Below, piece by piece: positions 22,847-25,440 of a stretch of DNA of 48,816 nucleotides; the first letter of the stretch is position 1; every line of letters starts with the position of its first letter. The notes beneath the pieces are model-generated. The model was not told where the DNA came from. It worked only from the letters and a program-made list of their open reading frames with translations, and searched no databases. This DNA comes from Candidatus Saccharimonadota bacterium. GTDB lineage: Bacteria > Patescibacteriota > Saccharimonadia > Saccharimonadales > UBA4665. The stretch spans positions 1-48,816 of the forward strand of contig JAGQNR010000006.1 of the NCBI GenBank assembly GCA_020427985.1, written 5' to 3'. Both the position numbers and the translations under genes were made by a program.

Positions 22847-23822
22847 AAAGACCGAACTACAAGCCATAGAGCGGTTGGCGAAGAAGCGTCAGCTGTGGCT
22901 CGAGCGAACAGCCTTGGCTCTCAATATAGCTCAGGACGATGCTGCCATACTACTTACCACTCAGCGCCAACCCAGCTTCCGTATTAACGATCTCAAAGTA
23001 CGTTCTAAGCAGCAGGGCAAAGAGGTACTAAAAACGTTACTTGGTGGCGGCTGGCAGGGTGAAGCACTTGGTCCAGGATTTACTATCGATAGTGGCTATG
23101 AGGCGGTACGTGATAGCCATGTAGTGACTGAAGGCCTCGTGTATATTCAGAACGCCGCTAGCTGGCTGCCAGTAGTGGTACTTGACCCCCAACCAGGTGA
23201 AGCAATACTCGATGTGTGTGCGGCACCAGGAGGCAAGGCATCGCACATCGCCGCCATAACAAAAAACCAAGCCGAGCTGTGGCTTAACGACAACAGCCGC
23301 ATTCGGTTGCACAAACTGCGAGCCAATCTTGAACGACTAGGGGTGAGAGTAGCTGGTCTAACTCTCTACGATGCGACGCAACTTGTGCGTAAATATGCTC
23401 AAGAACAGCCTAGAGTGTTTGACAAGATTTTGCTTGATGCCCCCTGTAGTGGAGATGGATTAATGCGGCTGAACAACGACAAAGATTTTGCTACATGGTC
23501 GGTTGCACACATCAAGCGTCTGCAGCAATTACAAAAAAAACTCATTACGCAAGCCTGGCAACTACTGAAGCCGGGCGGCACGTTGGTCTATAGTACGTGC
23601 ACTATGGCACCAGAAGAAAATGAAGCAGTCATTGACTATCTTTTACGTAAAAATAATGATGTCCAGGTGAAAACTATAGATATAAAACTGCCAAATCAAG
23701 TAAAATCGGTGTTAATCTGGCACGGCAAAGAGTTTGACCAGAGTTTGCATAAATCACTCCGTTTAGCTCCTAGCCCACACATTGAAGCCTTTTATGTGTG
23801 CTCGCTTTTAAAGCTTCGTTAG
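22839..23822 (+). CDS. NOL1/NOP2/Sun-type rRNA (cytosine-5-)methyltransferase
   Basis: 327 residues. SAM-binding motif DVCAAPGGKASH (residues 126-137), motif IV DAPCSGDG with the release cysteine at 203 and motif VI STCTMAPEENE with the catalytic cysteine at 254: both cysteines needed for m5C methylation are present. It resembles RsmB/RsmF, which methylate 16S rRNA; the N-terminal NusB-like domain of RsmB is absent, so it is nearer RsmF. Start ATG overlaps the previous stop (ATGAGTAG). Confidence 0.9.
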   Translation: MSRKTELQAIERLAKKRQLWLERTALALNIAQDDAAILLTTQRQPSFRINDLKVRSKQQGKEVLKTLLGGGWQGEALGPGFTIDSGYEAVRDSHVVTEGLVYIQNAASWLPVVVLDPQPGEAILDVCAAPGGKASHIAAITKNQAELWLNDNSRIRLHKLRANLERLGVRVAGLTLYDATQLVRKYAQEQPRVFDKILLDAPCSGDGLMRLNNDKDFATWSVAHIKRLQQLQKKLITQAWQLLKPGGTLVYSTCTMAPEENEAVIDYLLRKNNDVQVKTIDIKLPNQVKSVLIWHGKEFDQSLHKSLRLAPSPHIEAFYVCSLLKLR

Positions 23823-23842: not shown

Positions 23843-23871
23843 TTGACAAGCATTGTAGGTACGAGTATAAC
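23843..23871 (+). promoter_or_regulatory. Promoter of the aromatic leader peptide
   Basis: Perfect TTGACA (23843-23848), 17-nt spacer, TATAAC (23866-23871). The leader ATG follows after 7 nt, so the transcript starts at or just before it. Confidence 0.82.
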
Positions 23872-23878
23872 TGTAGCA

Positions 23879-23950
23879 ATGATAACGCACCTAAACTATT
23901 ATTTTTGGTTTACCGACTCGCCTGTGGCGGTCTGTTCTGTGCGCTCATAA
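23879..23950 (+). CDS. Candidate leader peptide, 23 aa with a YYFWF run
   Basis: ATG 23879 lies 7 nt after the -10 box, the spacing of the other leaderless genes in the window. The 23 codons include five aromatic residues in a row (Tyr-Tyr-Phe-Trp-Phe, codons 23897-23911). Directly after them come a hairpin (23915-23932), a sequence able to pair with the terminator's 5' arm, and the terminator itself at 23974-23996. The geometry is that of ribosome-mediated attenuation by aromatic, probably Trp, aminoacyl-tRNA supply. It could also be an unrelated short peptide. Confidence 0.6.
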   Translation: MITHLNYYFWFTDSPVAVCSVRS

Positions 23951-23996
23951 ACAAACTTGAACTCACAAACTAGCCCGCCACTCCGGCGGGTTTTTT
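23915..23996 (+). terminator. Attenuator: 1:2, 2:3 and 3:4 pairings
   Basis: Segment 1 GACTCGCC (23915-23922, T18 bulged) pairs with segment 2 GGCGGTC (23926-23932). Segment 2 can instead pair as GTGGCGG (23924-23930) with CCGCCAC (23975-23981), 7 perfect bp, which would destroy the terminator. The terminator is CCCGCC (23974-23979) with GGCGGG (23985-23990) followed by six T. Confidence 0.72.
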
Positions 23997-24031
23997 ATAA
24001 CACTACACTCACCAAAGAATGGAATACGACA

Positions 24032-24166
24032 ATGGAAGAAATAAAAGAAGTACCAGTAAAAGCTGTTACCACTTCAGATATTCATATACTTGCGACCCTA
24101 GCCCTACAAGAGGGCTTTGAACCGGTGCGTAATGAATCTGGAGAGATTATAGGAGCAAAATTTTGA
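24032..24166 (+). CDS. Small hypothetical protein, 44 aa
   Basis: A short acidic protein downstream of the attenuator, with no recognised domain. Predicted helix around residues 17-30 (DIHILATLALQEG) and a C-terminal beta-hairpin-like end. No clear promoter or Shine-Dalgarno sequence is visible at its ATG, so it probably depends on read-through of the attenuator. The stop overlaps the TTG start of the next frame (TTGA). Confidence 0.5.
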   Translation: MEEIKEVPVKAVTTSDIHILATLALQEGFEPVRNESGEIIGAKF

Positions 24167-24378
24167 ATTTAGGTAGTACAAAAGGACAACGGATAGCCGT
24201 GGTAACTGGGCAGAACAGTTGCAGTCGAGTAGAATCATGCTCCTTGGCCACAAATGAATCTTTAAGGCTCATTCGAAGAGACCTGTGTTTCCCAGTATTA
24301 AAGCTCCTCGGGGCGCTTACAGTCCACACTTCAGAAGACAGAATCGTAACTGCATGCCAAGAAGTGCGAGCAGAGTAG
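24163..24378 (+). CDS. Possible small protein, 71 aa, TTG start
   Basis: The TTG at 24163 overlaps the previous stop by four bases and has AGGAG (24151-24155) 7 nt upstream, a good ribosome-binding site. The 71-residue product is basic with five cysteines and no family I recognise. It ends just before the trpS promoter. The region might instead be untranslated leader; the TTGA overlap with a proper AGGAG tips me toward coding. Confidence 0.45.
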   Translation: MNLGSTKGQRIAVVTGQNSCSRVESCSLATNESLRLIRRDLCFPVLKLLGALTVHTSEDRIVTACQEVRAE

Positions 24379-24396: not shown

Positions 24397-25440
24397 ATGG
24401 ATAGACCAGTTATTCTAACCGGACTTCGCGCCAACAATGATTTGCATATTGGTAATTACTTTGGTGCACTGCTGCCAATTGTTGACATGGCAAATCGCCG
24501 GGCGGGAGCTTACGAGGTGCACCTTTTTGTTCCTGACCTGCATAGTTTTACTACCCCTATTGACCATAGCCTGCTGCAGGCGCAGATTATGCATAATCTT
24601 AAGTTGTTTGTAGCCGCCGGGTTGCCGCTTGATAACCCTAATGTGCATATTTACCGACAAAGTTACATTCCAGCACACAGCGAACTGGCGATTATTCTTA
24701 ATTCATTCACAGGCATGGGACAGCTCGGCCGAATGACACAGTATAAGGACAAGTCGGGTAAGCTTGGTGATGACATTGTAAGCGTTGGATTGTTTGACTA
24801 TCCAGTACTGATGGCGGCCGATATATTGTTGTATGGTACGCAGTATGTACCTGTTGGAGATGATCAAACTCAACACCTAGAATTTGCTCGGGATATTGCT
24901 GAACGTATGAACAGCAAATTTGCGACAGAACTTTTTATTGTACCCGAGCCAGTTGCCAAACAACGTGAGTTCTTTGGTGGGGCAACTGGTCAGCCAAAAG
25001 GCTTACGTATCAAAGACCTTATCGACCCTACCAAAAAAATGAGTAAAAGCGATGAATCAGGCCGGGGAATTATATTCTTAGGCGATACACCGGAAGCGGC
25101 GGTCAAAAAGATTATGGGGGCAACTACCGATAGTCTTGGCGCAGTGAATCTAGACCCAGACAATCAGCCGGGTATTGCAAACTTACTGCAAATTGTCGCG
25201 CTCTTAAGTAATCAGTCTCTTGACACGGTAGCTGAAATGCATCAAGGCCAGACCGAGTATGGTACTTTCAAAAAGCAGGTCGCCGAAGCCGTCCAGGCGT
25301 TTTTGGTAGACTTTCAGGCTCGACTTGCTGCTGTTGACGAAGTGAAACTACTAGAGAAGCTTTTGGCATCCGAAACAAAAATGAACGACGTCGCGAATGA
25401 AACCCTGCTTCGAGTGCAAGCTGCTGTAGGATTACGCTAA
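24397..25440 (+). CDS. trpS: Tryptophanyl-tRNA synthetase
   Basis: 347 residues. The class-I HIGH-type motif appears as HIGN at residues 17-20 and KMSKS at 214-218, with GDDQTQHLEFARDIAERMN of the TrpRS family between them. It charges tRNA-Trp with tryptophan using ATP. TATACT (24381-24386) and TATAGT (24390-24395) lie directly upstream, giving a very short leader. It may also be reached by read-through from the attenuated promoter at 23843, whose leader peptide contains a Trp codon. Confidence 0.95.
   Translation: MDRPVILTGLRANNDLHIGNYFGALLPIVDMANRRAGAYEVHLFVPDLHSFTTPIDHSLLQAQIMHNLKLFVAAGLPLDNPNVHIYRQSYIPAHSELAIILNSFTGMGQLGRMTQYKDKSGKLGDDIVSVGLFDYPVLMAADILLYGTQYVPVGDDQTQHLEFARDIAERMNSKFATELFIVPEPVAKQREFFGGATGQPKGLRIKDLIDPTKKMSKSDESGRGIIFLGDTPEAAVKKIMGATTDSLGAVNLDPDNQPGIANLLQIVALLSNQSLDTVAEMHQGQTEYGTFKKQVAEAVQAFLVDFQARLAAVDEVKLLEKLLASETKMNDVANETLLRVQAAVGLR

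Follow-up and report, generated by a model that had tools for sequence, protein, structure and literature searches.

What is a short reading frame crowded with aromatic codons doing ahead of trpS, the tryptophanyl-tRNA synthetase gene, in a Candidatus Saccharimonadota bacterium? The frame lies in a stretch of 48,816 nucleotides, here called the window, which is contig 42 of a 978-kb genome. A sequence-only reading of the window had taken it for the leader peptide of an attenuator, and comparison strongly supports that idea, the element being conserved in scores of genomes. We conclude that a ribosome-mediated, trp-type transcription attenuator acting on a leaderless mRNA very probably controls the trpS operon.

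The element follows a gene for an RsmB/F-type 16S rRNA methyltransferase, which ends at 23822, and its parts, like trpS behind it, lie on the forward strand. It opens with a sigma-70-type promoter at 23843-23871 (TTGACA at 23843-23848, a 17-nt spacer and TATAAC at 23866-23871). This promoter pattern has 18 sites across the 978-kb genome, including the one in the window, against 3 for a reversed control pattern. Seven nucleotides past the -10 box stands the ATG of a leaderless-looking leader frame of 23 codons, MITHLNYYFWFTDSPVAVCSVRS (23879-23950), which ends in TAA at 23948-23950. Codons 7-11 of the frame, TAT TAT TTT TGG TTT at 23897-23911, specify Tyr-Tyr-Phe-Trp-Phe and are the putative sensing codons, with the Trp codon at 23906-23908. 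Among ATG reading frames of 10-50 codons in the window, five consecutive aromatic codons occur in this leader only, and ten dinucleotide shuffles together yielded one such frame. A scan of the window also showed the leader to be its only leaderless-looking short frame with a terminator after it. For the motif TGGCGGTNTGTTC, no second exact copy was found in the bacterium's own genome, and matches with one or two mismatches occur there at chance level. The proposed regulated gene, trpS, occupies 24397-25440 (Pfam tRNA-synt_1b, E 6e-54); its closest matches in named genomes, at 52-71% identity, come from Candidatus Saccharibacteria or Saccharimonadia, which places the bacterium among the Saccharibacteria (Patescibacteria).

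Four segments that can pair in alternative ways follow the sensing codons. Segment 1 (23915-23922) has its partner in segment 2 at 23926-23932, as judged from the fold and from the test with swapped partners described below. Segment 2, GUGGCGGUCUGUUC (23924-23937), can pair with either segment 1 or segment 3. Segment 3 (23968-23981) in turn forms an antiterminator with segment 2 (core 23975-23981) or a terminator with segment 4 (core 23974-23979), and segment 4, GGCGGG and six T (23985-23996), is the 3' half of the intrinsic terminator. In the window, hairpin 1:2 is GAC.CGCC/GGCGGUC (23915-23922/23926-23932), with a calculated energy of -9.2 kcal/mol. The 2:3 pairing is GUGGCGG/CCGCCAC (23924-23930/23975-23981), at -15.8 kcal/mol, and its duplex continues 5' of segment 3. 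The terminator pairing 3:4 is CCCGCC/GGCGGG (23974-23979/23985-23990), at -13.5 kcal/mol, and is followed by the T run at 23991-23996. When the sequence was read again, the positions that the sequence-only reading had given for the promoter, the ATG, the aromatic codons, the stop and all three pairings were confirmed to the base.

The same leader was found in the regions upstream of trpS in relatives, and homologous leader frames are present in about 100 loci. A DNA pattern search matched 33 of the order's 393 genomes, with a few false matches among them. A covariance model built from an alignment of 30 members recovered the element in 117 of the 393 genomes and in 84 of 156 genera (E<=0.01; the weakest matches are partly false), so that between about a quarter and a third of these relatives carry it. 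Phylum-wide, the model matched 12 of 380 genomes at E<=0.001, and seven of these belong to the same order. Most sampled genomes of the largest family (f35) lack the element. Weak matches in a large genus, g91 (L294-L297), and at L298 were inspected and are not leaders.

We read closely the 108 leaders that were forward matches in the loci collected. In 96 of these, trpS lies downstream on the same strand, and most of the others break off where their contig stops. The stretch that separates the leader from trpS holds variable small reading frames or a DAHP synthase gene (a 15-member cluster), and also genes for prephenate dehydratase (one with chorismate mutase), prephenate dehydrogenase, a class IV aminotransferase, an Asp/Glu racemase and an aspartoacylase-like protein. 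Leaders occur as tandem pairs in 14 loci. In such loci the trpS-adjacent leader often ends in ..WRYC or similar, which places a second Trp codon within segment 2 (L109, L163, L177, L183).

The start of the leader also has recurrent features. A TANNNT box stands 5-9 nt before the ATG in 76 of 104 leaders, compared with 19 in a control stretch, and a -35-like signal is visible near -36 when the 104 leaders are aligned on the ATG. A Shine-Dalgarno-like 4-mer was seen in only 4 of the 104 leaders versus 76 of 99 first structural reading frames past the terminator. The promoter-to-ATG spacing on which the leaderless geometry had been proposed for the window is thus kept among relatives, and leaderless initiation appears, as far as sequence can tell, to be a conserved trait of the family. 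In several ordinary genes of the window (at 2228, 3564, 13914, 22223 and 34744), promoter and ATG are likewise spaced as in leaderless transcripts; therefore, leaderless starts seem ordinary in this genome.

Comparison of the sensing codons identified which of them are kept. Of the 108 leaders, 97 have Trp as the key codon, 90 have Tyr or Phe just before it and 87 have Phe or Tyr just after it, while the codon two before it is aromatic in only about a quarter. These counts define a core of three codons, Tyr/Phe-Trp-Phe. Of the five-codon aromatic run emphasized in the sequence-only reading, codons 9-11 (F-W-F) are therefore the conserved part; Tyr codons 7-8 lie upstream of the core and may be less important. 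A single Trp codon is present in 81 of 104 leaders; classical trp leaders carry more Trp codons than do most of these relatives. UGG stands at an almost constant distance from segment 2 (18-20 nt; in most leaders 20, 21 or 22 nt when counted to the first GG of the segment), but relatives read segment 2 in any of the three frames (VAVCSV, GGLFRVF, WRCVHMF). Near-fixed spacing together with three reading frames indicates that segment 2 is kept as RNA and not as peptide. Additionally, the stop codon lies 42 or 45 nt past UGG in 66 of the 108 leaders.

The pairings are conserved as well. In the 30-leader alignment, pairing holds in 91.5% of cells for 2:3, 97% for 3:4 and 83% for 1:2. Three of the 2:3 pairs show changes in both partners, and the outermost 2:3 pair switches among G-C, U-A and C-G. 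Because the pattern used to pick the initial set already fixed part of segment 2, some of the conservation in that part reflects the selection. We also used an alignment-free test on 97 leaders, which set the energy of each native pairing against the energies obtained with partners taken from other genomes. Own partners were stronger than swapped ones for 2:3 (p 6e-8), 3:4 (p 8e-16) and 1:2 (p 5e-6; Wilcoxon), with the reservation that related sequences inflate such pairing statistics. For the control pairings 1:3 and 2:4, own partners were not stronger than swapped ones in the same 97 leaders. The sequence-only reading had proposed an alignment of relatives as a check on the attenuator. Its outcome is positive: conservation and covariation are seen for the aromatic codons and for the three stems, which exclude one another.

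Placing a ribosome on the predicted folds had the effect that attenuation needs. With the ribosome at the stop codon, 94 of 95 leaders were predicted to adopt the terminator fold. With the ribosome at UGG, 63 of 95 were predicted to form the antiterminator, and about a third still folded to the terminator as the minimum. Ribosome-free predictions for the same 95 leaders gave 65 terminators and 30 antiterminators. Most relatives therefore prefer the terminator as naked RNA, but the lowest-energy fold of the naked window RNA is the antiterminator, in which segment 1 also pairs with segment 4. Termination in the window would thus have to rely on the order of folding, with 1:2 forming before the other pairings, or on a translating ribosome.

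Sequence and comparison together provide the parts of the element, their conservation and covariation, the association with trpS and the predicted folding switch; the transcript start, the stalling of the ribosome and the response to starvation we infer. RNA polymerase would start at or within 1-2 bases of the ATG, to judge from the promoter spacing, and a ribosome would load on the 5' AUG and follow the polymerase. If charged tRNA-Trp (or the Phe or Tyr tRNAs for the core codons) were scarce, the ribosome would halt at UGG 23906-23908 and cover segment 1. A ribosome with UGG 23906 in its A site should cover the RNA to about 23918; thus most of segment 1 would be covered and segment 2, from 23924, would be free. 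Segment 2 could then pair with segment 3 as it emerges, which would leave segment 4 without a partner, so that the terminator would fail and trpS would be transcribed. With adequate charging, the ribosome would reach the stop at 23948 and cover the 3' part of segment 2, 3:4 would form and transcription would end at about 23996. A ribosome halted at either Tyr codon (23897 or 23900) would not prevent 1:2 from forming, and limitation for Trp and Phe is therefore expected to act more strongly than limitation for Tyr in the window copy.

The RNA model, whose training set consisted of Trp leaders, picked up further copies at genes other than trpS, and in these the sensing codons have been exchanged. 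In one genome (G366, contig 30, L302:346-1281), a leader with a Tyr-Leu-Tyr core, MKSFNGNTYLYTDYILAVFAVRS, lies upstream of a gene for a biopterin-dependent aromatic amino acid hydroxylase (Phe hydroxylase, PF00351, E 2.5e-46), which is the sole PF00351 gene among the 393 genomes of the order. Two leaders with Tyr codons, MINLNVAQSYLVPYYLAD and MSSIIINSTYYVRIYLADYYSVS (G098 L316 and G142 L299), precede prephenate-dehydrogenase-like (tyrA-like) genes, and the G098 gene matches above the family cut-off. A leader with Phe codons, MHYIVSNFFAFTNPS (G286, L314), precedes a gene with a chorismate-mutase domain, as at the start of pheA. In G145 (L088:865-1627), a leader with three Phe codons is followed by a 212-aa reading frame without a Pfam match, and the next leader, Tyr-Trp-Phe, lies upstream of DAHP synthase. 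Codon content matches gene function in four of the five swapped copies, although such cases are scarce and it is context that supports the weakest matches (E 0.001-0.008). Swapped copies are rare: of the loci for prephenate dehydrogenase and dehydratase in 72 genomes, most have no leader of this kind. The match between codon and function is predicted by codon sensing, but not by models in which a peptide or a bound protein is the sensor.

This last point bears on the other ways in which the locus could be explained. In a TnaC-type arrest, the nascent peptide, with its conserved WFT, would stall the ribosome on free tryptophan, and the codons would not be sensing uncharged tRNA. W-F-T is indeed kept in most peptides, but the C-terminal half is in a frame that differs among genomes, which leaves no peptide motif near the stop, and copies with Tyr or Phe at the sensing position are found ahead of Tyr or Phe genes. 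Furthermore, induction of trpS by free tryptophan would make little sense, and we consider an arrest peptide very improbable. Just as improbable, in our view, is that a T-box, a tryptophan riboswitch or a protein-controlled antiterminator works the terminator and the small reading frame is incidental. The high sequence conservation of segments 2 and 3 resembles that of a possible binding site, and aminoacyl-tRNA synthetase genes elsewhere in bacteria are often controlled by T-boxes. Conservation of segment 2 is, however, expected for an attenuator because it must fit both segments 1 and 3, while segment 3 must also fit segment 4. No T-box or riboswitch was matched in Rfam at the gathering score, and the window and ten relatives gave no match to a T-box covariance model. 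Only about 35 nt of transcript, all of it coding, precede segment 1, and codon content tracks gene function.

It is less probable still that the leader is simply a small protein gene followed by an ordinary, unregulated terminator. Small reading frames are common, and variable ones also lie past the terminator in these loci. A gene of this kind would leave unexplained the conserved alternative pairing, the near-fixed distance from UGG to segment 2 in three frames and the switching folds.

Attenuators of this general design have been described elsewhere. The leader mRNA of Sinorhizobium meliloti trpL (rnTrpL) begins at the ATG of the peptide and is thus leaderless (PMC7298713). Like the window element, for which a leaderless start is predicted, the trp attenuator of S. 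meliloti has Trp codons and a terminator/antiterminator switch, a likeness at the level of architecture. In contrast, it controls biosynthesis, through trpE(G), in an alphaproteobacterium, whereas in the window a leader with the core Tyr/Phe-Trp-Phe precedes trpS. Predictions of classical attenuators in Corynebacterium and Streptomyces cover the trp operons of both and, in Streptomyces, trpS as well (PMC1262725). These candidates have in common with ours a leader peptide with UGG, an antiterminator and terminator formed from a conserved complementary triple and, in one case, trpS as the target, but they carry double or triple UGG, while here there is usually one Trp codon among other aromatic codons and a different triple, GGCGG/CCGCC/GGCGG. 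The sequence-only reading had called the combination of attenuation with leaderless translation unusual in this radiation; given S. meliloti trpL and Streptomyces trpS, it is less unprecedented than was claimed (PMC7298713, PMC1262725). In mycobacteria, a genus rich in leaderless transcripts, leaderless cysteine-rich upstream reading frames have been proposed as attenuators (PMC4633059). These likewise place a run of codons for the amino acid of the operon in a short upstream frame, but the amino acid is cysteine, and a conserved intrinsic terminator was not found at those loci (PMC1262725).

Among Rfam families, RF00513 Trp_leader scored best, with a full-length alignment at 22.1 bits (E 0.046), which is below its gathering score of 41 bits, so that by Rfam's rule the window element is not a member. 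Trp_leader and Phe_leader were the only leader families matched at E<10, and an M-box match elsewhere is attributable to chance. Our search of the open-access literature brought up no account of attenuation in Saccharibacteria or Patescibacteria, and the word 'attenuation' is absent from a 2024 overview of the biology of Patescibacteria (PMC11665869). The principle is therefore known; what is new is the RNA family, the branch of life, the conserved and apparently leaderless start, the aromatic core and the exchangeable codons.

Gene regulation in Patescibacteria is almost unexplored, and the element offers a well-defined, testable family of regulatory RNA. It suggests that epibionts with reduced genomes still monitor the charging of tRNA for single amino acids, and it indicates a regulatory use of leaderless initiation in Patescibacteria. 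The copies with exchanged codons amount to natural codon-swap experiments. As genetics is newly developed for these bacteria, the element may also provide a built-in expression switch that responds to amino acids.

A similar arrangement was found in two genomes of a different class (L205:1460-2910 and L208:1235-3088). Leaderless-looking peptides ending in NWWTTSLWR or HWWTTSLWR, with the same terminator layout, lie there upstream of a PLP-dependent enzyme whose sequence reads as trpB; in L208, trpS follows the trpB-like gene and a TrpR-family gene lies just upstream. A search for WW..W leaders in 233 genomes of that class found only these two convincing, the third match having three mismatches. 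Model matches in other classes (L206, L207, L209) showed no Trp leader when inspected by eye. Taken broadly, the leader may be a modular leaderless attenuator, in which the RNA chassis is kept and the sensing codons are exchanged (Trp/aromatic, Tyr or Phe) to suit the operon, serving host-dependent Patescibacteria as a general gauge of aromatic supply, with an independently arisen or very old trpB-trpS counterpart in another class. We regard this wider proposal as plausible but tentative, and would not quite favor it.

The genes directly behind the leader vary. The sequence-only reading had placed two small genes between leader and trpS. In the window, the first reading frame past the terminator encodes 44 aa (24032-24166, forward strand) and has no Pfam match; a variable small frame recurs past the terminator in relatives, many of which have a different one in this position. 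The second (24163-24378, forward strand, 71 aa, TTG start), also without a Pfam match, is doubtful. Small reading frames between leader and trpS are highly variable in general (window 24032-24378; L085, L144, L155). A C-x2-C...C pattern is common to those of three genomes of the same genus, and the second frame of the window matches it doubtfully. Some leaders (L164, L105, L167, L171) have behind them a protein of about 350 aa, which in L164 has no Pfam match, and then an M20 peptidase; for two of these leaders no trpS lies in the stretch read.
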